The notes: generated by a model not told the origin, from the sequence alone. A stretch of DNA of 40,523 nucleotides from a virus (IMGVR_UViG_3300017725_000018:1-40523); one strand, 5' to 3'. Positions 5,317 through 39,324 are shown, numbered from the stretch's first letter. Numbers and translations: made by a program.

Positions 5317-8300
5317 TTATGCAAGGGCGATGGTTCTAAAGTCCCTAATTCTTGGTGGATATGCTTGGTTAGTTGAAGTACCAACAAGTTTTACACTGAA
5401 GTATTTAAAGGATGGCAGATTATCAATTGTAAATTCAAGGTCAGTATATCTTACTTGACTTTCAATCAGTGCGAGTGTATCCGACTTAGTAAAGAACTTA
5501 TCTGGAGAACCATCGTTTTGTGAACTATCAATGACCTGACCACTCTGGAGGAGGTTTGAATAACCTGGGAATGGTTGATAGATTAATTGGTCAGTTTCTT
5601 CATTTGCAATTGCATAGAATGCTCTGACATCACTAAATCTATTGATATTCGCAGCCATGAAGATCTTAATTGCAGTTGCAGGTGCTTCCAGGGAAATTGG
5701 AGTGGATGCATAAACAAATGAGTTCGGATCATTAAGGAGGTTTGAAGTTCTATTATCAGTTACATAATTTGTGATTGGTCTGTTGACTCTATTTGAGGTA
5801 AGAATCATTGCGACACGATTCAAGTCAATAACAGGAGAAAGGGCGGCGTTCGCAGACGTTAATGTTAATGCAAGAGTCAATGATTTATTTCCTTGCAGAG
5901 TAGGAAGCAAGTTAGTTTCATTGATTCTAGATGCAATAAGTCTTGAAGAATCCAGATAGTTCTCTCCATTCAGTGTAATTGGTTCAAATCCCTTATCAAT
6001 GTAAGAAATTTCAGTTCCATCAATACTAGTGCCACTAATCGTTCTAACCTGTGCTTCAATATTGGTTCCTTGAGGAGTAATATTTTCAACAATTGGTGTA
6101 ATGATTTCATACTGAATGTTTTCAGTAGTCTTAATCTTATTTCCACCTGCGGACTTGGTGCTATTGAGATAAAGTTTTGGGAAACTTGTTCCAACACTTC
6201 TGTCTACACCATCTTCTGACATATCAAGTTTAATATTATAGAAGTCTAATCCAATAGAATCTGTTAGTGTAGAGTCTGCCAAGTTATGAATCTTATTGAT
6301 TCTACGAAGAGAAGCAGATCCCAATTCATACTTCTGAATGAAGTCTCCAGTGTCATATCCAAACGCAAGAGTGTTATCAACAGAACGAGTAATTCCAGTC
6401 AGATTATTGCCAGATACTCCGCTATAAGAAATAATCTCTTCACCAATCTTGGCATATCCAAGATTTGTAGTTCCAACTCCCACGTTCTCAAATGTTCCAA
6501 AGTTGCTTGCATCTGCAACAGTAATGTCAGCAGTAGAAGATGTTGGATAGTTTGCAGTCAATTTGGTTGACGGAACGTCTCCAGCAACATCAGCAATCTG
6601 AACTCTATTGATAGTAGAATGCATACCATGGTTCTTTTGATTAACCTTGATGTGTAAACCATCGGTTACATTAATTGGTGCTGCGGGTATGGTAACATTT
6701 GCACCACTACTTGAGTTGATATCTGTAGTTATACCAGAGTTATTGGTGTACCTCATTGTTCCAACAGATCCAACCAGGAAGTCTCCTTGAACATTATCAA
6801 TAATCAGTTCATTGATCCCTGTAATATCACCAACCGAGAGTCTAATGTTTCGTCCAAGAGAATTTAAACCAACATTAGTTACCGTCAATACATCACCTAC
6901 AGAATATCCAGTTCCACCATTGGAGATGGTTGCTGCAAGAGCAACTCCATTTTCAATAGCAAGGTTTACGGTTGCATCTCTTCCAGTTCCAGTGACATTA
7001 CTAGCAGTAACATTTGAATATACAAAATAACCAGAAGAAGGAGTATAACCAATACCAGAGTTAGTAATAGTTAATGAACCAGTTGCTGTTCCTGCAGAAC
7101 CAACATAATTACCAGTTGCATTAGAACCGTGCTGACTGATAGTGTTTCCAAAAGTCAAATTGGGTTCTTGTAGAGTAGAACCGAGACCAACTCTAATTCT
7201 ATTGGAAGAAATTTCTATAGCGTCCTTAATTACAAATTTTGAATTATCTGTATCAATATTTGTAATTGGATTATAGAAATTGACTGTTCCTTGAGGAGCA
7301 AATATTGCTCTATTTAAGATAAACTTAAGATCCTCATATTGACTTGGATTCCAAGTTTCTCCGTTTTGTGACTTATATAGAGAACCAAGAAGTGGTTGTG
7401 CAGTAACAACAACTTGTCTAGATTCATCTTCATTTGCAGAGGTTACATCAATTTCACCAAGTCTAGAAATCCAAACAGTATATTCATTACTATCAGAAAG
7501 CAGTACTATAGAATGATATTCACCACCAGTTAAATAAACTGGAGACTTGAATGTAATTTTGGTAGAAAGAGATGCATCATCAGAAACTACAACATCATCA
7601 GGATCGATAACAACTTCACTGAATGGATATATTTCGCTAGTTGGAATTCCAAGTTTTGTTGGACGAAGTTGTGCTGTAACTGGTAAAGTTGCATCTTTTG
7701 TTCTGAAGTAAACATCTACAGAAGTTACAAAGATGCCACTATCTTCATTAATAAAGAAGGATTGTCCAAGAGGATCTCTACCATTTGAACATCTCTGCGT
7801 AAGTGATGACGGATGGTTTTCAATTCCAGATAAAATATCATTAAGATTACCACCGTTTGCAGCAACGTGCGCTTGCCAACCGTCAATCTCTGATTGTACT
7901 GGCGTCCTACCCAAATTTTGTCGATAAGATGCTATGATAAGGTTTTCTTCAAGGTTTTCCTGTGTATTTGCTGCCCGCGTCGGGGTCACGGTGCGGGCAT
8001 CGACTGAATTACTAGTAAATGTTGCACCAGGAGATGCTGTAGATTGTGTAATTTGATATTGTGTCTGCTGCCGAGCAATTTCTCCTTTATCTAAGTATGT
8101 TGCTTCTGGACCACTTGCAATATCTTTTCTAATTTGAGCAATTGCTTGGGATTGAGATAACCCCTGATTTATTAGTTCTGGATATCTTGTGTCAGTCCAA
8201 TATGCTTCGCCACCCGTTTCAGGTCTTCTGCCCAATATGTCAACGTAAGCCGCCTGTACACCATTAAGAACTACTCTATCAACGTTTGTCGCCTCAATAT

Positions 8301-31770: not shown

Positions 31771-31800
31771 ATTATAGCAAATAAGGGGACAATGTGTCAA
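31771..31800 (-). promoter_or_regulatory. near-perfect sigma70-type promoter
   Basis: The minus strand reads TTGACA, an 18-nt spacer, then TATAAT. Both hexamers are exact consensus. Transcription would start near 31764 and run into the 65-aa gene and the glycosyltransferase. This would be read by host RNA polymerase, fitting immediate-early expression. The -35 sits in the loop of a terminator-like hairpin. Confidence 0.75.
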
Positions 31801-31838: not shown

Positions 31839-32102
31839 TTAGACACCGAAGTAGCAATCAGAATTAATCTCGACGATGTTTACTTTAGGGTCTCTGTAGT
31901 TAACACCATCGGGCGTCGATACGTCATTGAAGGAACAACCCTCGAGAGCATCTACGAAATTCTCATAACTACCTGCCGAACGTGCCAGGTCATAAAGACC
32001 CTCATCGTTCCCGATCCAGAGGGCAACGTTCCAGGTCTCATAGTTCGTCCAACCGTTGTAGGTGGTATCGGTGAGGTCTGTCTGAAAAGCGGAGACTGTC
32101 AT
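31839..32102 (-). CDS. YNGWTNYETW-type small protein, 87 aa
   Basis: The signature YNGWTNYETWNVALWIGNDE at residues 15-34 is typical of a family of small phage proteins of unknown function (I recall DUF7249; not verified). The rest is acidic with a YENFVDALEGC helix. It has its own copy of the nine-member intergenic element immediately upstream, with a leader of about 20 nt. A terminator-like hairpin follows. Small proteins of this kind are usually made early and may act on the host; that is an inference. Confidence 0.8.
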   Translation of the reverse strand: MTVSAFQTDLTDTTYNGWTNYETWNVALWIGNDEGLYDLARSAGSYENFVDALEGCSFNDVSTPDGVNYRDPKVNIVEINSDCYFGV

Positions 32103-32118
32103 GAGTGAATTGAGTGAT

Positions 32119-32155
32119 TACGCTATTAGGACACTTTAAAGGTGAGTAACTTAAA
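32119..32155 (-). promoter_or_regulatory. intergenic promoter-like element, copy A
   Basis: The minus strand has GTTACTCACCTTTAAAG, TGTCC, then TAATAGCGTAATC before the 87-aa gene. It is one of nine copies (A-I) with the consensus GTTACTCACCTYTAAA, STGT, about 4 nt, then TATAGTGTAAG. GTTACT and TATAGT are 17 nt apart, as in a sigma70-type promoter. Confidence 0.65.
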
Positions 32156-32181
32156 AGGAGAATAAGTACCCCCCTTAAGTA

Positions 32182-32514
32182 TCAACGACGATCTAATGCA
32201 GCTGCCTTACGGTCTGCTTTAATCTGTGCAGCGTAACGACGCTTAACCTTTGAAAGATTTGATACCATCTCTTTACCAATACCGCAGACTGGGGTCATTG
32301 TTTGTTCACGTCCCCCGCCTGTTGTTGTTGCTTTGGTGGTAGAATCTCCCGTCTTAACTGTACCCAATGCGCGACCTGAAACCATCCCCATCGGCAACTT
32401 AGACCAGGTTTCTCCCTTACGGGGTCCACGAGTCTTAAGTTTCTTGATAGTAACTGTTTTGCCACTATCTTGCAGACTGTCAATGATGTGAGTCAATTGA
32501 GTGACTGAATTCAT
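32182..32514 (-). CDS. basic protein of unknown function, 110 aa
   Basis: The N-terminal helix MNSVTQLTHIIDSLQDSGKT is followed by a Gly/Thr/Lys-rich middle (TIKKLKTRGPRKGETWSKLP, TTKATTTGGGREQTMTPVCG) and a very basic C-terminal helix (NLSKVKRRYAAQIKADRKAAALDRR, quoted to show its charge in two parts: NLSKVKRRYAAQ and IKADRKAAALDRR). The composition suggests nucleic-acid binding, but no motif proves it. It has element copy B upstream and copy A downstream, so it probably forms its own transcription unit. Confidence 0.75.
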   Translation of the reverse strand: MNSVTQLTHIIDSLQDSGKTVTIKKLKTRGPRKGETWSKLPMGMVSGRALGTVKTGDSTTKATTTGGGREQTMTPVCGIGKEMVSNLSKVKRRYAAQIKADRKAAALDRR

Positions 32515-32530
32515 TGGGGCGGTTTGCTGC

Positions 32531-32568
32531 TTACACTATAAGGACACTTTAAAGGTGAGTAACTTTAA
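32531..32568 (-). promoter_or_regulatory. intergenic promoter-like element, copy B
   Basis: A near-consensus copy: TTAAAGTTACTCACCTTTAA, AGTGTCC, TTATAGTGTAAGC. It lies between the 57-aa and 110-aa genes and leaves a leader of about 20 nt. Confidence 0.7.
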
Positions 32569-32579
32569 TTCCTATACAA

Positions 32580-32753
32580 TCACCATTTGTCTGGAGTACT
32601 TAAACTTTCCACATAAGCATCACACCTCTCAGAACCTTCAAGTTCGAACAACCTTTCCCAGTTGATATTGTTGGGATCAAAATCTCCCAGTGCCTCAATA
32701 TTCAAGGTGATTCGATAACGTTGCTTCTGTGCTTGTTGATAGATAGCAGGCAT
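32580..32753 (-). CDS. small conserved protein, 57 aa
   Basis: It begins MPAIYQQAQKQRYRITLNIE, continues with DFDPNNINWERLFELEGSE and ends VESLSTPDKW. CGGAGA lies about 4 nt before the ATG, a good ribosome site. The promoter at 32783-32811 gives a leader of about 25 nt. The strand-rich start (RYRITLNIE) and short helix suggest a small alpha/beta fold. I recognise it as a cyanophage-type small protein with no known function. Confidence 0.75.
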   Translation of the reverse strand: MPAIYQQAQKQRYRITLNIEALGDFDPNNINWERLFELEGSERCDAYVESLSTPDKW

Positions 32754-32782
32754 GTTTCTCCGAGTGGTGTGAAGACTTAATC

Positions 32783-32811
32783 AGTGTAGAATGAGCGTGG
32801 CTATATGTCAA
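32783..32811 (-). promoter_or_regulatory. sigma70-type promoter for the 57-aa gene
   Basis: TTGACA (exact), a 17-nt spacer and TACACT lie on the minus strand, with the -10 about 30 nt before the ATG at 32753. No copy of the nine-member element is present at this gene; this promoter takes its place. Confidence 0.6.
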
Positions 32812-32834
32812 CCTCATAACCGTTATTTATGAGG
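32812..32834. other. 8-bp stem inverted repeat containing ATAAATAA
   Basis: CCTCATAA and TTATGAGG form an 8-bp perfect inverted repeat with a 7-nt loop, directly upstream of the promoter at 32783-32811. The minus strand also reads CATAAATAA, a late-promoter-like sequence. It could be an operator or a late start; there is no T tract, so it is not a classical terminator. Confidence 0.4.
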
Positions 32835-32991
32835 GATGCTTATGTTTTTTGAGTGTCAAGTCCCCAAAAAACTTATGTGCGGGTGCTTGACATTTCTGCG
32901 CGGTTGTGATAGAGTGCTTGCTTAGATCACAAGGACTGGGGACATTTAATTAATCATAAGTACAAGGACTATGAGACATTAAAACACACAC

Positions 32992-33125
32992 TTTTCCACA
33001 GAAATACACCTTAATACACACATTATATAATACTTTTCCACAAGGGTGTGGAGAACTCATATACATTTAAAATAACATTTAATTATATAAAAAAGACTAA
33101 TCTTTATGTATAATAGCATAAAAGG
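32992..33125. other. candidate origin: DnaA-box cluster next to AT-rich tract
   Basis: Exact TTTTCCACA, the cyanobacterial DnaA-box form, occurs at 32992-33000 and 33034-33042 in the same orientation, 42 bp apart (about four helical turns). An inverted TGTGGAGAA at 33047-33055 (complement TTCTCCACA, one mismatch) forms an inverted repeat with the second box. The following 60 nt are almost pure A/T (ATTTAAAATAACATTTAATT, then TATATAAAAAAG). Boxes beside an unwinding-type tract in the longest gene-free stretch suggest a replication origin or a DnaA-titrating site. This is inference; T4-type phages are not known to need DnaA. Confidence 0.45.
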
Positions 33126-33143
33126 GGTGATTTTACCCCCTTT
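33117..33143 (-). terminator. rho-independent terminator after the 30-aa gene
   Basis: On the minus strand AAAGGGG and CCCCTTT form a 7-bp stem around a loop of about 9 nt, followed by TTTTATG. It is about 30 nt after the stop of the 30-aa gene. The plus strand also has a short T run, so it may work both ways. It separates this unit from the origin-like region. Confidence 0.6.
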
Positions 33144-33173
33144 ATGTGTTATTCAGTTATATGAACTAAGTGA

Positions 33174-33266
33174 TCAATAGAGTGATTCAATTGCCTCCAG
33201 AATGAGAAGAATATCATTACCATTCTCAGCAGATTCAAGAGCAAGGAAGAGATCAGACTTAGACAT
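33174..33266 (-). CDS. tiny protein, 30 aa
   Basis: The frame reads MSKSDLFLALESAENGND then ILLILEAIESLY and stop. It is a single amphipathic helix-rich peptide. Support comes from its position between the 113-aa gene and a terminator, and from resemblance to short S(E/D)LFxAL...GxDIL peptides I recognise from cyanophages. No strong ribosome site is seen. Function unknown. Confidence 0.6.
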   Translation of the reverse strand: MSKSDLFLALESAENGNDILLILEAIESLY

Positions 33267-33376
33267 GAAAAAGTGTTAGTTAGAGTTTGTAATTAGTGAG
33301 TTTTAAGTCATCACCAGGACTCGGTTAATACTAGGTCTTACGCTGAATACTGTGCTGCCTAGTTGTTAGTTAATGA

Positions 33377-33718
33377 TCATGCAAAGATGAAACCATTTGT
33401 GAAATCATATGTATTGAAGACTTTACTTTGTCCTGCCATTCCTACAAACTTATCAACATACCACTGAAAGTTCTTTTGATAAACACACTCTCCATCAACA
33501 CAGAAGTAGTTACATAGTGCATTCAATCTAGACTTAGTTGTAGTTGATTGATAACCTCCATCAAAGATAGTCATCGAATCATCATCAATAGTTGCAATTT
33601 GATTGCCATGAAGATAAACGAAACTTACACCCTCAATTGTAATGACTTGAGTGTTACCAGATTTCCAATCAAGATTAGACTGGATTGCTTGGCACATTTC
33701 GGTTTCAATTTTACGCAT
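33377..33718 (-). CDS. conserved cyanophage-type protein, 113 aa
   Basis: It starts MRKIETEMCQAIQSNLDWKS and continues with GNTQV, VSFVYLHGNQIATIDDDSMT, FDGGYQSTTTKSRLNALCNY and KNFQWYVDK. The YLHGNxIA...FDGGxxSxTTKSRLNAL pattern is one I recognise as a recurring small protein of T4-type cyanophages, function unknown. Copy C of the repeated element lies upstream, but with an unusually long leader of about 95 nt that contains no obvious reading frame. It is probably cotranscribed with the 30-aa gene. Confidence 0.8.
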   Translation of the reverse strand: MRKIETEMCQAIQSNLDWKSGNTQVITIEGVSFVYLHGNQIATIDDDSMTIFDGGYQSTTTKSRLNALCNYFCVDGECVYQKNFQWYVDKFVGMAGQSKVFNTYDFTNGFIFA

Positions 33719-33818
33719 GATTTGAGAGTTTTAGAAGAAGATTGGTGTGAGTTTATCACCAGCAGTAGAGTTGCCAACTGACTCACTTAGGAGTGGTGAT
33801 TGGGTGTCCTGTGCCCCT

Positions 33819-33857
33819 CACACTATTGAAACACTTTAAAGGTGAGTAACTTTTAAT
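33819..33857 (-). promoter_or_regulatory. intergenic promoter-like element, copy C
   Basis: TTAAAAGTTACTCACCTTTA, AAGTGTTT, CAATAGTGTGAGG on the minus strand, upstream of the 113-aa gene and directly after the 79-aa gene. Confidence 0.65.
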
Positions 33858-33867
33858 CTAACCTAAA

Positions 33868-34107
33868 TCACATGCCATTCATGAACTCGTGTAACTCTTC
33901 TAAGTATTGCTCTTCAGTCTCAAATGAACGTCCATAAATCACACACGGAAATGTATGCTTTTGAAACATAGTTGAAGTAACTTCACAGTCTTGTTTGTCA
34001 TAACCCATTTCAATAAGAGTGTTTACATAAGGATTGGAAGTAGTCATAGGTTTGTAGATAGAAAGATTAGAAAGTTGTGTGAGAGAGTCGTTAAACAGAT
34101 CAAGCAT
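33868..34107 (-). CDS. hypothetical protein, 79 aa
   Basis: The start was taken at the ATG that overlaps the previous stop by 8 nt (ATGCTTGA), with GAAG about 7 nt upstream. The longer frame would need a TTG, and two other ATGs lie 21 and 24 nt upstream. The product (MLDLFNDSLTQLSNLSIYKP, then NTLIEMGYDKQDCEVTSTMF, ending EEQYLEELHEFMNGM) is mixed alpha/beta with an acidic C-terminal helix. Function unknown; coupled to the 75-aa gene. Confidence 0.65.
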   Translation of the reverse strand: MLDLFNDSLTQLSNLSIYKPMTTSNPYVNTLIEMGYDKQDCEVTSTMFQKHTFPCVIYGRSFETEEQYLEELHEFMNGM

Positions 34108-34327
34108 TTGTTGCTTCAGAATATACATCATAAAACATATCAAATGCCATCAAATCATGCACAAATGAATTCATGTTTGATTGATCAGCAACCCAATCAT
34201 ATGCCATATCTAAATCAGCACCGGTTTCTAATACAAACGATTGTAAACCTTCGAGTGCAGATAGAAACGCAGGATCATAGGCGATCTGTCCGCTGATTGG
34301 TTTGGTCTGTTGATTAGTGTTCTTCAT
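34100..34327 (-). CDS. acidic hypothetical protein, 75 aa
   Basis: It starts MKNTNQQTKPISGQIAYDPA and is helical and acidic (FLSALEGLQSFVLETGADLD, MAYDWVADQSNMNSFVHDLM). The ATG lies inside the 3' end of element copy D, so a transcript starting 6-9 nt after the TAGTAG -10 would begin within the gene. Function unknown. Confidence 0.7.
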   Translation of the reverse strand: MKNTNQQTKPISGQIAYDPAFLSALEGLQSFVLETGADLDMAYDWVADQSNMNSFVHDLMAFDMFYDVYSEATNA

Positions 34328-34362
34328 ACTACTAAGACACTTTCGAGGTGAGTAACTTTTAA
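34327..34362 (-). promoter_or_regulatory. intergenic promoter-like element, copy D
   Basis: TTAAAAGTTACTCACCTCGA, AAGTGTCT, TAGTAGTATGAAG; the last ATG is the start codon of the 75-aa gene. The upstream edge abuts the stop of the 93-aa gene. Confidence 0.6.
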
Positions 34363-34364
34363 TC

Positions 34365-34646
34365 CTATACTAATTCTTGCTGATACGACATTAGATTCTC
34401 TTCTGTAATCTCATCCACACTCTCTTGAATCACCTGATAGATGTAATCATTGTTTCCTACATCATCAAAGATACGTGCAACAAGTGCAGGATCATTTACC
34501 TCACTATCATAATCAATCTCACCATTTTTATCCTTCAAATGACAATCATTCTTGGTATAGATCCATGCGGCACATTCTGCATCCTCTCCCTGTTCTTTGA
34601 TCATAGATGATACTCTGTCTTGAAGTTGCTTGAGAGTGTAGTTCAT
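34365..34646 (-). CDS. hypothetical protein, 93 aa
   Basis: It starts MNYTLKQLQDRVSSMIKEQG and is acidic, with an ECAAWIYTKNDCHL strand, a DPALVARIFDDVG helix and a long acidic C-terminal helix (VIQESVDEITEENLMSYQQE). No catalytic or membrane feature. It lies 48 nt downstream of the 90-aa gene with no element in the gap, so the two probably share the message that starts at copy E. Confidence 0.75.
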   Translation of the reverse strand: MNYTLKQLQDRVSSMIKEQGEDAECAAWIYTKNDCHLKDKNGEIDYDSEVNDPALVARIFDDVGNNDYIYQVIQESVDEITEENLMSYQQELV

Positions 34647-34694
34647 GATTTGAGTGAGTGAGTGTTAGTTAGTCTCTTCAGTAAATGAAACTAA

Positions 34695-34967
34695 TCAACC
34701 ACAACATGCCATCGGAGAATATTCTTCGCGAGGCATCTTATCAGTATTGTAACCAGTCACCTCAGAACCATTAGCAATACGAGAATGCCAATCATACTTT
34801 GCTTCGATAGCAAGAATTGTGCTGTATGATTTCATACCATTAACACGGAAAGTAACGCGACGAATGAAACGACGAACAGTGACTTTCATGCCTTTCTTTT
34901 CACAAGACTCAGCAATGAATGCCTCAGGGAAGTAATCAACGATCGTGGTGCTGTTGGTGACTTGCAT
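34695..34967 (-). CDS. hypothetical protein, 90 aa
   Basis: It starts MQVTNSTTIVDYFPEAFIAE and has a basic central strand region (VTVRRFIRRVTFRVNGMKSY) and a C-terminus MACCG with adjacent cysteines. It is mostly beta with a positive patch. No family recognised with confidence. Copy E of the repeated element lies upstream, leaving a leader of about 20 nt. Confidence 0.75.
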   Translation of the reverse strand: MQVTNSTTIVDYFPEAFIAESCEKKGMKVTVRRFIRRVTFRVNGMKSYSTILAIEAKYDWHSRIANGSEVTGYNTDKMPREEYSPMACCG

Positions 34968-34983
34968 AACGTTGAACGGACGA

Positions 34984-35021
34984 CTACACTATAAGAACAG
35001 TTTAGAGGTGAGTAACTTTTA
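34984..35021 (-). promoter_or_regulatory. intergenic promoter-like element, copy E
   Basis: TTAAAAGTTACTCACCTCTA, AACTGTTC, TTATAGTGTAGTC. The first bases are the stop codon of the upstream gene (TTTTAAAAG), so the element begins without any spacer. Confidence 0.7.
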
Positions 35022-35300
35022 AAATGCCAAACATGCCCAACGATCTAATTTTGTGCCATAATACTTGTTGATAGTTTGAGTTACAACTTCATTGCACTCA
35101 CTATCACAAAAACCCCATTCTTGATGTGCTTGTAGATAACGATACATTACACTTTGAGCATTGATTGCATCATCATTATCAGCAAGAAGTAAAGTGAAAA
35201 AACTATTCACCTTATCAATTACATCATCAGGAGTATCAATGTAACATTCCCATTCGCTACGCTTCAGTGTGATTGTTTTCATTGAATTAGAAATAGTCAT
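35019..35300 (-). CDS. hypothetical protein, 93 aa
   Basis: The body reads MKTITLKRSEWECYIDTPDD, then VNSFFTLLLADNDDAINAQS, YLQAHQEWGFCDSECNEVV and a C-terminal CLAF. The listed start is the first ATG (MTISNSMKT); an ATG six codons later gives MKTITLKRSEW and may be the real start. Neither has a good ribosome site. It has a mainly helical composition with clustered Cys (CDSEC). It follows the 60-aa gene by 30 nt, so the two are likely cotranscribed from copy F. Confidence 0.75.
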   Translation of the reverse strand: MTISNSMKTITLKRSEWECYIDTPDDVIDKVNSFFTLLLADNDDAINAQSVMYRYLQAHQEWGFCDSECNEVVTQTINKYYGTKLDRWACLAF

Positions 35301-35330
35301 GAAGAATAAACTTAGAATCTTATATGTTAA

Positions 35331-35513
35331 TCAACCTCCAAACATTTCATCAAACAATGGTGTCTCACGATTCTCACGATCATACATTTCATTAACCAAC
35401 CAAATGTTTTGTTTGATCCATGCAATTTCGTTTTCTTTCTTGGTAAGCATCTCACGAAGATCGTAGAGTTGCTTATTACGTTCGGTGATTGTCATTGCTT
35501 TAGTTGTGCTCAT
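35331..35513 (-). CDS. small coiled-coil protein, 60 aa
   Basis: Residues about 8-47 form a continuous amphipathic helix (ERNKQLYDLREMLTKKENEI, AWIKQNIWLVNEMYDREN). The C-terminus is LFDEMFGG. The ATG at 35513 lies within the 3' end of element copy F; a second ATG (MTITERNK) six codons later would fit a transcript starting just after the element. Likely oligomeric; function unknown. Confidence 0.7.
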   Translation of the reverse strand: MSTTKAMTITERNKQLYDLREMLTKKENEIAWIKQNIWLVNEMYDRENRETPLFDEMFGG

Positions 35514-35548
35514 ACAACTATGACAGTTTAGAGGTGAGTAACTTTTAA
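35511..35548 (-). promoter_or_regulatory. intergenic promoter-like element, copy F
   Basis: TTAAAAGTTACTCACCTCTA, AACTGTCA, TAGTTGTATGAGC. It overlaps the start codon of the 60-aa gene on one side and the stop of the membrane-protein gene on the other. Confidence 0.6.
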
Positions 35549-35868
35549 TCCTTAAACTTTTCCATTATCATAGCAATAACTACGAAAACAGAGATAGGTA
35601 TAGCAACATACCAATACTCAATAAGTAACCAAAGCATGAAAATAAACCCTATCACTATAATCAAACCTATGGCATTTCCTGCATCACTAATAGCAGAACT
35701 TCCACGCGGTTCATTATAAGATCTTTCGCATTGTACTATACAACCAGGGTTTCTACGTTGCACCATACAAATTGCATCATGTGCCGTCAATGCTTCTACT
35801 GTTTCAACATATTGCTGAAACATATCAGTTTGACCAACTTTAGGATATACTCTAATGTCGTAAATCAT
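35545..35868 (-). CDS. small membrane protein with two C-terminal helices, 107 aa
   Basis: Residues 1-60 form a soluble domain (MIYDIRVYPKVGQTDMFQQY, then ALTAHDAICMVQRRNPGCI). Two hydrophobic segments follow, about residues 66-83 (AIGLIIVIGFIFMLWLL) and 86-101 (WYVAIPISVFVVIAMI), with a short turn and a basic tail, so both ends would lie on the same side of the membrane. GAGGA before the ATG is a good ribosome site. It could alter the host envelope, but no holin or superinfection-exclusion family is recognised. Confidence 0.75.
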   Translation of the reverse strand: MIYDIRVYPKVGQTDMFQQYVETVEALTAHDAICMVQRRNPGCIVQCERSYNEPRGSSAISDAGNAIGLIIVIGFIFMLWLLIEYWYVAIPISVFVVIAMIMEKFKD

Positions 35869-35889
35869 AACTAATCCTCATAGTGTTTT

Positions 35890-36048
35890 TCATGCTGGTG
35901 TTACACTCCATTCATCTGTAGGAACCATCGTTTTGATGACATGTTCAACATTTTCGATTCCATAAACTACAACTTTCTGAGTTGAAATGTAACCACTTTT
36001 CTTCTCACGTTTCCATGAAACAACCCATCGATCACAAGATACTTTCAT
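35890..36048 (-). CDS. small hypothetical protein, 52 aa
   Basis: The frame reads MKVSCDRWVVSWKREKKSGY, then ISTQKVVVYGIENVEHVIKT and MVPTDEWSVTPA. Its ATG overlaps the stop of the preceding gene (ATGA), which supports coupled translation. Two strands and a helix suggest a compact domain. Function unknown. Confidence 0.65.
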   Translation of the reverse strand: MKVSCDRWVVSWKREKKSGYISTQKVVVYGIENVEHVIKTMVPTDEWSVTPA

Positions 36049-36245
36049 ACCCAATTCTCCATAAATTCGTCAAGTGTGTAACCTTCGCCAGTTGATGTTT
36101 CTTCAATCAATTGTTCGATTGTAAGTTCTTCCATCTTCAAACGATACTCCTCTGGTGTGTCATCATTAGGATCATAATCATCATGACAAAGATACTCCCA
36201 TTCACGAACAAGTGCATCAATTAGTTGCTCTTTAGTATAATCCAT
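36045..36245 (-). CDS. acidic conserved protein, 66 aa
   Basis: The ATG is 2 nt after the previous stop; the longer frame extends into that gene and is rejected. The product is MDYTKEQLIDALVREWEYLC, then HDDYDPNDDTPEEYR and TGEGYTLDEFMENWV, strongly acidic and helical. I recognise MDYTKEQLIDAL...YLCHDD as a recurring cyanophage-type small protein with no known role. Confidence 0.75.
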   Translation of the reverse strand: MDYTKEQLIDALVREWEYLCHDDYDPNDDTPEEYRLKMEELTIEQLIEETSTGEGYTLDEFMENWV

Positions 36246-36247
36246 AA

Positions 36248-36634
36248 TCAGGCACCCTGATAGTATGAATTGCGATAAAGATAACCACCCGCCCAATCAC
36301 AATTCTCCAACATAAACTCACGTTCTTGAATGATTAGCAGATTGAAGCGTACTCCTTTAGCAGGTGCTTTGTATGATGCTGCTTTGTAAACTTCACCAGT
36401 CTTCTTATCAATGAAGGCATGAACTGATTCAGTCTCACCATTGACACATTGCATCACTTTGTGATACTTACGACCAGAGATGAGTACATAAGAATAGTTC
36501 TTACCATTAGGATGTGAACGCTGATGACTTTGCTGAAGAGCATCACACAGCATCAGAGCATACTTAGTGACATTCAATTGAATGGTGTTCTGAGCATCTT
36601 TTTGGGCAACGTAGTCTGTGAATGTGGTGGTCAT
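36248..36634 (-). CDS. conserved cyanophage-type protein, 128 aa
   Basis: The core SGRKYHKVMQCVNGETESVH, FIDKKTGEVYKAASYKAPAK and GVRFNLL is a pattern I recognise in many T4-type cyanophages; the function is unknown. The N-terminus is helical (QLNVTKYALMLCDALQQSH) and the C-terminus aromatic (CDWAGGYLYRNSYYQ). The DKKTGEVYK turn resembles a small nucleic-acid-binding beta domain, but that is a guess. It heads an operon of at least three coupled genes under element copy G. Confidence 0.8.
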   Translation of the reverse strand: MTTTFTDYVAQKDAQNTIQLNVTKYALMLCDALQQSHQRSHPNGKNYSYVLISGRKYHKVMQCVNGETESVHAFIDKKTGEVYKAASYKAPAKGVRFNLLIIQEREFMLENCDWAGGYLYRNSYYQGA

Positions 36635-36648
36635 AATGTTTGGATGCT

Positions 36649-36686
36649 TATACTATAAGGACAGTTTAAAGGTGAGTAACTTTAAT
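36649..36686 (-). promoter_or_regulatory. intergenic promoter-like element, copy G
   Basis: TTAAAGTTACTCACCTTTAA, ACTGTCC, TTATAGTATAAGC. It begins directly at the stop of the nucleotidyltransferase-like gene and leaves a leader of about 15-20 nt with no ribosome-site-like sequence. Confidence 0.7.
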
Positions 36687-37589
36687 TTACCACGTTTTTG
36701 CCATCAAAAAATTCGCACGACTGAACTCTTTACGGTCAACAACCTTGAAGATGCCATATTGATTGCTGATAACATAACCTTCATGCAGACTATAAGTATC
36801 ACCAATCATACAGGTAATGTCATCGGTTTCATTGGTGAACCAGAACAAATCGTCCTTGATAGTTGCAACCAACTTCCACAATCGCATCACATTGATATCA
36901 ATATCAAATTTTTCTGCAATTTCATTTTCGTCAATATCATTCTCAGCACGGATACAATCATTGATATGTTTTTTGACCTTTGCAGCAGTTTTATCATTCA
37001 AAAAAGAACCATGACACAAAGTTGCCATTTGTTTGGCAAAATTGCAAACGTCCTTCAAATCTTCACGATAAGGGTTCAATGAAACTTCTGGTTTTACAAA
37101 GAAACATTTATAGGTACTTTTGGGACAAAGTATCATAGGTGATGAAACTGCATTACGAAGGTCATCATCTGCCACATAGATTGTATGAGGTGCAATGATA
37201 ATATCTTCTGCAATTATTTCAGGAAAGATGTAAGTGATCGTGTTGGGACGATAAGTAAGGCTACCACCATAACCAATGAAATCACCTTGAAAGATAGAAT
37301 CTGTGCGAGGCAAACAATCAAAGCAAGCATGAAGAATACGCGCAACTTTACCCTGATGGTTTTTGTCAATTTCTTCATGAGAATGATTGATTTTGATTTT
37401 TACTTTGTTGAAAACAGATTTAGTGCCAACAAAAAATGTATTGGTTGCAGGATCTGTACCCCAAACAATAGCAGGAGCACCATCCATTTTAGTGCTGATG
37501 AAACTATCAGGTTCAGAAAACCAATCAAGAACCGAAAGATCTCCAGTCAGGATAGAATCTTCAGGATGTTGTAGGTGGGTGTTCTTCAT
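36687..37589 (-). CDS. probable covalent nucleotidyltransferase (ligase-like), 300 aa
   Basis: Residues 33-39 read TKMDGAP, the KxDG motif I of DNA/RNA ligases and capping enzymes (candidate nucleophile Lys34). Further family-like motifs follow in order: a motif III-like IFQGDFIGYG at 99-108, motif IV HEGYVIS at 269-275 and motif V FKVVDR at 281-286 (Lys282). It would bind ATP, form a Lys-AMP and act on an unknown nucleic acid or nucleotide end. The strongly conserved-looking N-terminus MKNTHLQHPEDSILTGDL supports the first ATG, which overlaps element copy H. I recognise similar proteins in T4-type phages but no proven activity. The length fits an RNA ligase catalytic domain with a helical insert. 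Confidence 0.6.
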   Translation of the reverse strand: MKNTHLQHPEDSILTGDLSVLDWFSEPDSFISTKMDGAPAIVWGTDPATNTFFVGTKSVFNKVKIKINHSHEEIDKNHQGKVARILHACFDCLPRTDSIFQGDFIGYGGSLTYRPNTITYIFPEIIAEDIIIAPHTIYVADDDLRNAVSSPMILCPKSTYKCFFVKPEVSLNPYREDLKDVCNFAKQMATLCHGSFLNDKTAAKVKKHINDCIRAENDIDENEIAEKFDIDINVMRLWKLVATIKDDLFWFTNETDDITCMIGDTYSLHEGYVISNQYGIFKVVDRKEFSRANFLMAKTW

Positions 37590-37622
37590 ACTACTGAAAC
37601 AGTTTAGAGGTGAGTAATTTTT
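37587..37622 (-). promoter_or_regulatory. intergenic promoter-like element, copy H
   Basis: AAATTACTCACCTCTAAAC, TGTTT, CAGTAGTATGAAG; the first core base deviates (ATTACT for GTTACT). It sits 10 nt behind a rho-independent terminator, which is strong support for promoter function. The start codon of the nucleotidyltransferase-like gene is within its 3' edge. Confidence 0.7.
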
Positions 37623-37631
37623 ACATGAGCA

Positions 37632-37659
37632 TAAAAAAGGAGGGTGATAATACCCTCCT
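37632..37659 (-). terminator. rho-independent terminator
   Basis: On the minus strand AGGAGGGT and ACCCTCCT form a perfect 8-bp stem around ATTATC, followed by TTTTTT. It starts a few nt after the stop of the 60-aa gene and ends just before element copy H. Confidence 0.9.
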
Positions 37660-37666
37660 CATAATA

Positions 37667-37849
37667 TCACCGATCAATAGCAGAATAATATGCTTTGTCG
37701 GTGATAACATTAAACAGAAAAGAAAGATCCTCTCCTAGTTTTTTAATTTCGTAATTATGAATACGGAGACGTGCTTTTAAATCTAAGAACAAAAGATCAA
37801 AGGTAGCATCATAGTCCTCACGTTCCATAATTACGGTGGGACGAGTCAT
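37667..37849 (-). CDS. small hypothetical protein, 60 aa
   Basis: It reads MTRPTVIMEREDYDATFDLL, then FLDLKARLRIHNYEIKKLGE and DLSFLFNVITDKAYYSAIDR. It is helix-rich and amphipathic, with alternating acidic and basic faces. It forms a single-gene unit between element copy I and a strong terminator. Function unknown. Confidence 0.75.
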   Translation of the reverse strand: MTRPTVIMEREDYDATFDLLFLDLKARLRIHNYEIKKLGEDLSFLFNVITDKAYYSAIDR

Positions 37850-37863
37850 AAAAGAATCGTGTG

Positions 37864-37902
37864 TTTACACTACAGATACACTTTGATGGTGAGTAACTTT
37901 AA
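37864..37902 (-). promoter_or_regulatory. intergenic promoter-like element, copy I
   Basis: TTAAAGTTACTCACC, ATCAAAGTGTATC, TGTAGTGTAAAC. It is the most divergent in the middle. It overlaps the stop of the motif-I methyltransferase gene and leaves a leader of about 20 nt to the 60-aa gene. Confidence 0.6.
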
Positions 37903-38324
37903 CTGAAGAAAGATTCCACTCCTACAGGTTCACCAAATCCATAATCATATTCTAGTGCATTAGTACAAACGTAGTGAGGGTGATCAACTGGAACACCAAT
38001 TCTTTTACACAACTCAGCGTGATTATCTTCCATAAGTTCTACTGCAAACAGCATATTATCATTGATATGTGTTAAGTCATGATACTTCAATAATTCTGTT
38101 TGCAGTGCCAATAGGAAGTTCCCTGACCCCGCAGAATTATCAAGAAAAGTAGACTTAGGATCTTTTAGCGTAGATTTAGAGATCTCTGATACCATTTCAA
38201 CACAAAGTTCAGCAGGAGTGAATACTTCACCTGTCTCATCAATTCTATCATCGGTCCTTTCAATGTCCGACCCTGTAGTAGAGTTGTGCTGATTCTTTTT
38301 AGAAGTATCGTCTTTTCTAAACAT
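37899..38324 (-). CDS. methyltransferase motif X-I-II-III fragment or subunit, 141 aa
   Basis: The start is the ATG that overlaps the previous stop by 8 nt. Motif X (TGEVFTPAELCVEMV, 31-45), SAM-binding motif I (FLDNSAGSGNFLL, 60-72; usual form DPAAGSGNFL), motif II acidic residue (LFAVELMEDN, Glu96) and motif III (NALEYDY, 122-128) are all present in normal order. The protein stops just where catalytic motif IV (NPPY) should follow. Motif IV is found instead in the gene just upstream. It may be a SAM-binding subunit of a split N6-adenine methyltransferase, or a truncated enzyme. There is no stop or frameshift within the visible domain. Confidence 0.8.
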   Translation of the reverse strand: MFRKDDTSKKNQHNSTTGSDIERTDDRIDETGEVFTPAELCVEMVSEISKSTLKDPKSTFLDNSAGSGNFLLALQTELLKYHDLTHINDNMLFAVELMEDNHAELCKRIGVPVDHPHYVCTNALEYDYGFGEPVGVESFFS

Positions 38325-39324
38325 AAAAATTTGGAATAAAGTTGTTGATATATTCTCTGTCTTCTTGTGAAATGTTGTAATAGTCAAATACAGAATCGTC
38401 GTCCCATTGTTGATTCAATGGCGGCATAGGTACACAGTCAAGGTATCTTTTAATATACAAATGTTGGGAAACTTTGTTGATAGACAAAGCAAACCTTGCA
38501 AACTTAGTCTTTAGATAAGAGACCATATTTGCTCTCTCTTCAGAACTATTCAGAAGAAAACAACGTGCTCCTTTCTTGTAACCATAAAGATCACTTCTCT
38601 CATAAAAGAATGTCCAGAAGTCATCTTTACAAGTCTTAGTCTTATCTTTTGCTCTACCATCTCCACAAATTTCAGGTGCCTTCAGTGTGCAATCTGTTGC
38701 ACGATCTTCCAACTTAGCAACATGCTGATAAACATTACTAGAAACAGCAAGTTCTTTGATATTGTTGACAATATCCCAATGCTTTTCTGTTGGTTCCCAA
38801 TATCCAGTGGGAAGGTCATCTAGACTATCAATATAATACTTATTGCCAGTGAAATCATACTCAACTTCAATAGGCCCAACGTGGTTTTTTGCAGCATAAG
38901 TGATAACCAACGGTGCTGCAAATTGTGCAGGAGCAAAGACATGATTGCCATTGAAGAACTTCAACTTCTTGACCCTACCTTTTAGAGCATTCTTTACCTG
39001 TTTCTCAATATCTTTTGTGGTACGATACAACCAACCAGCAGGATGAATTAAACTCACATTGTCCGAATTATTAAGTGCCATGAGTAAGAACTCAAGGTGG
39101 ATGTTTTTTAGATAAGGTGGATTACCAATGGTATGAGTAAAGTGCATATTGGTAAGAGATTCGCGGTCAGTAGTTACATTTATTCTATCATCAATCTGAT
39201 TAATTGCATAGATGTGTCTGGAATCATTCTCCCAGATGGTAATATCTTCAGGAGCATATCCTTGGCGCTTGATTGCACACAAAGAGTGCAAACCTGAAGG
39301 GTCTCCAATGATAGAAAGTTTCAT
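38317..39324 (-). CDS. N6-adenine methyltransferase-like protein with NPPY motif, 335 aa
   Basis: Catalytic motif IV NPPY is at residues 68-71 (THTIGNPPYLKN). A VSLIHPAGWLY segment (90-100) and FNGNHVFAPAQFAAPLVITY (124-143) follow, as in Eco57I-like and type I/IIG adenine methyltransferases. Upstream there is a Rossmann-like half (ITIWENDSRHIYAINQI) but no clear glycine-rich motif I; MKLSIIGDPSGLHSL is the only candidate. Residues about 160-300 could be a target-recognition region, with a basic, Cys-containing stretch. The ATG overlaps the helicase stop (TGATG), so translation is coupled. It probably needs the 141-aa protein for SAM binding; that is an inference. Confidence 0.8.
   Translation of the reverse strand: MKLSIIGDPSGLHSLCAIKRQGYAPEDITIWENDSRHIYAINQIDDRINVTTDRESLTNMHFTHTIGNPPYLKNIHLEFLLMALNNSDNVSLIHPAGWLYRTTKDIEKQVKNALKGRVKKLKFFNGNHVFAPAQFAAPLVITYAAKNHVGPIEVEYDFTGNKYYIDSLDDLPTGYWEPTEKHWDIVNNIKELAVSSNVYQHVAKLEDRATDCTLKAPEICGDGRAKDKTKTCKDDFWTFFYERSDLYGYKKGARCFLLNSSEERANMVSYLKTKFARFALSINKVSQHLYIKRYLDCVPMPPLNQQWDDDSVFDYYNISQEDREYINNFIPNFYV

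Follow-up and report, generated by a model that had tools for sequence, protein, structure and literature searches.

The 40,523-nucleotide (nt) viral stretch IMGVR_UViG_3300017725_000018:1-40523 (hereafter the window, meaning this whole stretch) carries nine nearly identical elements of ~34 nt, all on the minus strand and each located just 5' of an open reading frame (ORF), within a region of small genes of unknown function. Our analyses, which are comparative throughout, indicate that these elements are probably promoters, specific to phages, that serve the hyperplastic region of small genes in T4-like cyanophages. The left part of each element, a box that differs between phage lineages, is likely read by a phage-encoded protein of ~200 amino acids (aa), here called the factor, because the box changes in step with a short stretch of this protein.

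The window represents part of the genome of a T4-like cyanophage and encodes baseplate, head-closure and head-tail connector proteins, and its nearest isolates are S-SM2, Bellamy and SynMITS9220M01 (~73% DNA identity over the core). A weight matrix built from the nine copies scored them at 47.9-56.8 bits, with the next-best site in the window at 2.0 and the best site of 60 simulated windows at 12.1; only the gap between these scores is informative, because the matrix was derived from the same nine copies. A simple element pattern allowing up to 3 mismatches was found 10 times in the window, where 1.1 occurrences are expected. An earlier sequence-only reading of the window had listed nine minus-strand elements, one of them behind a strong terminator and none in the late virion genes, and in all these respects it was accurate, the positions and orientations being correct and far above chance. 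The shared orientation by itself is little proof, because essentially all genes in the region lie on the minus strand. The same reading had placed GTTACT 17 nt from TATAGT; the spacing holds in all nine copies, whereas TATAGT is exact in three only, the others having AATAGC, AATAGT, AGTAGT, AGTTGT or TGTAGT. The shared upstream edge that it described is present and is better written as (A)TTAAA.

The anatomy of the element was drawn from 150 non-redundant copies bearing the box of the window, GTTACTCACC. These copies suggest a compact promoter-like module with fixed spacing, consisting of an AT-rich edge, the left box, a core CTnAAAStGTnCY and a TATAGT box. The edge is AT-only, with T at -5 and A at -3 and -2; GTTACTCACC occupies offsets 0-9, T-Y-N-AAA-S-T-G-T offsets 10-19, followed by N-C-Y, TATAGT at offsets 23-28, and then purine-T-R-A. 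The -10-like TATARTRT stands at a fixed distance and is well conserved (T25 in 147/150, A26 in 135/150 and T28 in 143/150 copies), and a pyrimidine at offset 28 followed by a purine at offset 29 is found in all 150. As in sigma70-type promoters, there is a TATAAT-like hexamer with a final T, 16-18 nt from the box; no TTGACA-like -35 hexamer is found among the left boxes (GTTACTCACC, GGGGGGACG, TCTGGGGCC, ACTGGGCCC etc.).

The left box behaves as an interchangeable module. In S-SM2, twelve copies lie at the corresponding place, some at the same genes, with GGGGGGTCG replacing GTTACTCACC and the right half unchanged; SynMITS9220M01 bears GTTACTCACC, like the window, at genes where S-SM2 has GGGGGGTCG. 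A search of IMG/VR with the right half alone retrieved at least 566 distinct copies, a lower bound and not a census, with at least nine types of left box (viz. TTACTCACC, GGGGGG[AT]CG, nnTGGGGCC, nCTGGGCCC, TTAnGATCG, CTTGGATCC, TTAGTTACC, ACTGA[AG]GC and TAGCTCACC, plus rarer ones). The constancy of the core among these copies is partly a product of selection, because the core pattern was used for retrieval, and the diversity of the boxes is unaffected by this. Among the matches listed, 892 of 1042 within-locus pairs (86%) share a box type against 14% expected; hence each phage uses essentially one box type. The promoter interpretation offered by the sequence-only reading needs revision here, GTTACTCACC being one of several boxes, at least nine in number, that are lineage-specific and exchangeable on a shared core.

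The elements are phage-specific. A search of 84,980 species genomes of bacteria and archaea gave no exact match. In whole phage records the elements are gene-proximal and occupy one cluster of ~10-20 kb per genome in one orientation, which supports the sequence-only reading. They are absent from Syn9, S-PM2, P-SSM2, S-CAM7, Bellamy, S-SKS1, S-SCSM1, S-CAM9 and Sf-FS3, where lone matches with 2-3 mismatches are at chance level. Repeat searches of Syn9 and S-PM2 with long k-mers were swamped by coding repeats. S-B05, RB11-B, S-B43 and P-TIM68 hold diverged cousins of the element. In P-TIM68, at least 13 unannotated copies of GTTAGTTACCTCTAAATTGAnnTATTAATGTAATCAAGG lie 5' of genes at 43.6-58 kb. 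On inspection of S-SM2 and SynMITS9220M01, no recurrent promoter-like feature other than the element set was seen upstream of these genes. Terminators are not enriched upstream of the elements (within 85 nt at 23/727 copies vs. 69/2007 control starts), and a literature search for the motif letters returned nothing relevant.

The sequence-only reading had also suggested looking for a phage-encoded activator, and a candidate reader of GTTACTCACC has been identified. Comparison of four genomes with compact elements to four without yielded a short list including a 201-aa protein of SynMITS9220M01, which is encoded inside the element cluster. Its family (~200 aa) is without a match in Pfam, and any match in PHROG is marginal at most. 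In the phage of the window, the gene lies ~1 kb past the right end of the window, at 7396-8055 of a record (L037) that matches the window at 99.94% over 5,150 bp. By tblastn, the factor is present in 10 of 50,697 phage records, nearly the same records that hold the elements; among isolates, it is found in 6/7 with elements (RN05-S by tblastn) and in 0/9 without. AlphaFold models of the factor (pTM 0.28 and 0.35) give the C-terminal helix a local confidence (pLDDT) of ~90 and most of the remainder low values, which supports a C-terminal helix on a protein that is disordered for the most part and conserved in an N-terminal segment. The N-terminus, MKTF.QF..EA, recalls the capsid-targeting sequences of T4. 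A factor-like N-terminus (MKSF.QF..EA) also occurs on a 408-aa cytidylyltransferase-like protein present in several cyanophages (S-SM2 130761; L065:10761-11984). Because of these similar N-termini the likeness is only a lead toward an injected internal head protein.

Further evidence connecting the factor with the element is the covariation of its C-terminal helix with the left box. When ~40 local protein families were compared as predictors of the box (in most loci, the genes within ~10 kb of the elements), the factor performed best, with a nearest-neighbor accuracy of 0.70 against 0.15 by chance, as compared with 0.14 for the helicase, 0.28 for GC71 and 0.51 for gp25. The signal is located in the C-terminal helix, 8 residues of which give 0.81; in a pooled leave-one-out test the helix reached 0.81, against 0.51 for the N-terminus and 0.11 by chance. 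With typing restricted to copies that lie over 1 kb away from the factor gene, 0.79 of an attainable 0.85 was reached (chance 0.12). The box follows the C-terminal helix independently of the N-terminus of the factor and of the neighboring genes: the partial Mantel correlation of box and C-terminus given the N-terminus is 0.55 (0/2000 permutations), whereas that of box and N-terminus given the C-terminus is 0.06. A clear example of a domain swap is provided by two loci (L142 and L020) whose factors are 92% identical in the N-terminal and 12% in the C-terminal part and whose boxes differ.

Across 110 loci, the mapping from the first residues of the helix to the box is close to one-to-one: ERD occurs with CTCACC (27/28), ERM with GTTACC (10/10), ERN with GATCG (7/7), ERR with GTAGCC (10/11) and EKK with boxes ending in CCC (GGGCCC, GTCCCC; 19/19). 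The factor of SynMITS9220M01 is of the ERD type and that of S-SM2 of the ERK type. This table of rules was drawn up after the data had been seen. Protein-first loci, which were located through the factor rather than through the element, agree with it. In these loci, ERA goes with CTCAGC/CTTAGC; the boxes of the three ERA loci end in AGC or, in one, no repeat was found. Four seeming exceptions among the protein-first loci carry ERM inside a longer protein, and in S-B05 ERD accompanies TTACTCACC, which fits the mapping.

A number of observations weigh against the factor as the reader of the box and against the elements as ordinary promoters. In a strict held-out nearest-neighbor test on the protein-first loci, helix (14/29) and N-terminus (12/29) were not separated, because the test set is rich in box types nearly absent from the training set. 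The helix window was scored on the very loci that had served to find it, and the loci are related and unevenly sampled, so that the significance values treat them as more independent than they are. S-B43 holds at least 8 elements and no detectable factor gene, an exception possibly due to a rearranged record. Gene order and strand in S-B43 (L344, L346) shift abruptly near 209-211 kb of the record. The factor has no sequence similarity to any solved DNA-binding protein, and homology of its helix to sigma70 region 4 was rejected, as hhalign showed no similarity between the two. Finally, an ordinary -10 role of TATAGT is at odds with an ATG at offset 29.

This last point concerns a substantial part of the elements, and here, too, the promoter interpretation of the sequence-only reading needs revision. 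Two placements of the first codon are seen: precisely at offset 29, within TAGTATGA, or from offset ~43 onward, with a maximum at 46-48. Roughly one third of the copies with the exact box have their ATG immediately after TATAGT, a placement that misfits an ordinary -10/+1 arrangement. The frame of the offset-29 ATG is open for at least 40 codons in 52/52 such copies, compared with 38/98 for the same frame in the other copies, and in a wider set, among the matches listed, in 282/304 against 112/262. A second start within 14 codons is lacking in 22 of the 52. The protein starting at 37589 in the window has an N-terminus, M[KQ]N[TK]H[LI][QE]HP, that is also found in Bellamy and S-SKS1 despite their different leaders. 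On this evidence, the offset-29 ATGs are genuine starts. In 19 offset-29 copies of varied box types, a terminator lies within 85 nt upstream; offset 29 should therefore be transcribed, which an ordinary -10 box at 23-28 would not allow. The simplest reading of the offset-29 copies is a leaderless transcript that would begin at 28/29, with an unusual start as the alternative.

In the mechanism that we propose, the right half AAAStGTnCYTATAGTRTRA would be the shared core, including the -10-like TATAGT, and would be recognized by the host RNA polymerase, while the left box (offsets 0-9, in the -35 position) would serve as a lineage-specific address. The C-terminal helix of the factor would bind this box and supply the missing -35 contact, and the bound factor would bring or hold RNA polymerase, in a way similar to MotA at the middle promoters of T4; the conserved N-terminal segment could, as a guess, touch the polymerase. 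The factor would either arrive with the virion or be made first, and a change in its helix would be accompanied by a change of box throughout the set of copies. A wider proposal, to which we give slightly less than even credence, is that these phages possess a reprogrammable transcription system, in which the first residues of a short C-terminal helix specify the address box, helix and about a dozen boxes have repeatedly switched together, and many genes are expressed from leaderless mRNAs. Such switching perhaps keeps co-infecting phages or defenses from using or blocking the promoters.

Three other explanations would account for parts of these data. The elements may act at the RNA level: transcription from upstream would run through them, and the factor would bind the RNA through its arginine-rich C-terminus, as lambda N-type peptides do, to control antitermination, translation or decay of each gene. 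The offset-29 ATGs, which must be in the mRNA, and the basic nature of the factor with its TR.ER-type helix, which may resemble arginine-rich motifs, speak for this possibility, yet we regard it as unlikely: an offset-29 copy can follow immediately upon an intrinsic terminator, both TATARTRTRA and the AT-rich edge resemble promoter features, S-SM2 and SynMITS9220M01 offer no other recurrent promoter-like feature upstream of these genes, and no compensatory pairing of box and core is seen across types, position 20 remaining C or A whatever position 6 may be. Since these two positions, 6 in the box and 20 in the core, do not covary, we also rejected a palindromic operator or RNA hairpin common to all types, although copies with GGGGGGACG alone can pair.

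Still less probable, in our estimation, are plain host-type sigma70 early promoters, with TATAGT as the -10 box and GTTACT as a weak -35 box, homogenized within a genome through recombination of the copies with one another, as proposed for the promoter-early stem-loop (PeSL) cassettes of T4-type phages. The 17-nt spacing, the -10-like box, the location of the repeats in a recombination-prone region and the copy behind a terminator would all agree with such promoters. Left boxes such as GGGGGGTCG, TCTGGGGCC and ACTGGGCCC are nothing like TTGACA, however, the box alone is replaced while the flanking core is kept, and a consensus scan fails to pick out the elements; homogenization also leaves unexplained why the box should vary with 8 residues of a protein whose gene lies elsewhere in the cluster. 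To a similarly low degree we credit an indirect covariation, in which the box is read by an unseen factor encoded beyond the sampled regions, with the helix tracking that factor, e.g. by interaction. The ~10 kb range of testable genes in most loci gives this some room, but a rule-like tie of a single basic helix to a DNA box is what direct reading predicts, and C-terminal domain swaps on a near-constant N-terminus accompany the box swaps. Binding of the box by the factor at a phage-specific promoter is the reading that we prefer.

Coordinates of the nine elements, the adjoining terminator and the candidate factor gene (the 5' end of each minus-strand element is its higher coordinate; offsets are counted from the first position of the left box)
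Feature	Sequence	Position	Strand	Remarks
Element 1 (GTTACTCACCTTTAAAGTGTCCTAATAGCGTAAT)	window	32117..32150	-	ORF 31839-32102, start codon at offset 48
Element 2	window	32530..32563	-	ORF 32182-32514, start codon at offset 49
Element 3	window	33817..33850	-	ORF 33377-33718, start at offset 132, long leader
Element 4	window	34323..34356	-	ORF 34100-34327, ATG at offset 29, abuts AGTAGT
Element 5	window	34983..35016	-	ORF 34695-34967, start codon at offset 49
Element 6	window	35509..35542	-	ORF 35331-35513, ATG at offset 29, another in frame at offset 47
Element 7	window	36647..36680	-	ORF 36248-36634, start codon at offset 46
Element 8	window	37585..37618	-	ORF 36687-37589, ATG at offset 29; no second start nearby
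Element 9 (most divergent, CACCATCAAA)	window	37864..37897	-	ORF 37667-37849, start codon at offset 48
Intrinsic terminator	window	37637..37660	-	18 nt upstream of element 8
Factor gene	SynMITS9220M01	40815-41420		

Other features were noted in the window and in related genomes. A promoter that matches the sigma70 consensus perfectly (TTGACA, 18 nt, TATAAT) is located at 31771-31800 on the minus strand of the window, upstream of the genes after the element region, and such host-like promoters may serve other gene classes. At 37899-39324, on the same strand, neighboring ORFs of 335 and 162 aa overlap; both are weakly similar to DNA methyltransferase families, and together they are possibly a split gene. 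S-SKS1 (L080) has repeated leaders AGTAACACTTACTCATTCACT...CTAACTAACACTTTTTTTCAAAATG before several small genes at 11.6-14.6 kb and a 22-nt tandem repeat at ~10.6 kb, and S-CAM7 (L058) has five terminator-like intergenic repeats TGACCACTGAACCCCCACAGGGCAC at 0-10 kb.

T4-like cyanophages are among the most abundant viruses of the ocean, and a readable factor-box code would partly answer how their early and middle genes are controlled. The factor-box pairs would provide a natural set of orthogonal promoters and activators for cyanobacteria, as well as an example of a regulator that has changed specificity many times in concert with about a dozen sites per genome. These proposals are directly testable in the isolates SynMITS9220M01, S-SM2, S-B05 and P-TIM68.

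Among known systems, the closest is an early-gene regulatory element of the T4-like cyanophages Syn9 and P-TIM40, which, according to a 2016 abstract by Doron and colleagues, is novel and said to be widespread. It is reportedly likewise a phage-specific regulatory element; we know of no cognate factor or box switching from that work. Syn9 has no element match at up to 3 mismatches and no factor. In the same region, Syn9 (L105), Bellamy (L079) and S-SKS1 (L080) share a different leader, approximately GACAGTTGAC-n-AAGTGKCMCA, ~30 nt, then CRTGTATTNTATAAGAGTCAAAGG before the ATG, which may be the published Syn9 early element. This leader (AAGTGKCMCA box, ~30 nt, TATNNTRTAAG) has the pieces AAGTGTCC and TATNNTRTAAG in common with the window element. 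Since the Syn9 region has another architecture, the window element is at most a relative of the Doron element.

The T4 middle promoters are similar in combining a -10-like hexamer with a box for a phage protein in the place of the -35 and in being repeated before many genes; they differ in that the MotA box is unrelated to the window boxes, the factor is a different, mostly disordered protein, and the window box diversifies between lineages. A T4 late promoter was rejected, as the elements have TATAGTRTRA, not TATAAATA (NATAAATA), and avoid virion genes. Cyanomyoviruses lack alt, modA, modB, motA and asiA, and their early and middle control is unclear (PMC2984593). PeSL cassettes (Arbiol 2010 and Comeau 2014, as cited in PMC4503421) are also repeated promoter cassettes of the hyperplastic region, sometimes behind a stem-loop terminator, whereas elements of the window type rarely have a stem-loop (23/727, no more than at control starts), and their left box, which tracks a phage protein, is unlike host sigma sequences. 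The promoters of the single-subunit RNA polymerases of the T7 group (T7, T3, SP6, K11) similarly show lineage-specific recognition evolving with a phage protein, which there is the polymerase and here a small accessory protein; PF00940 (RNA_pol) had no match in six related-phage records, a search in which the control genomes gave none either. Phage-specific promoters are of a known kind, and the new part would be the factor-box code.

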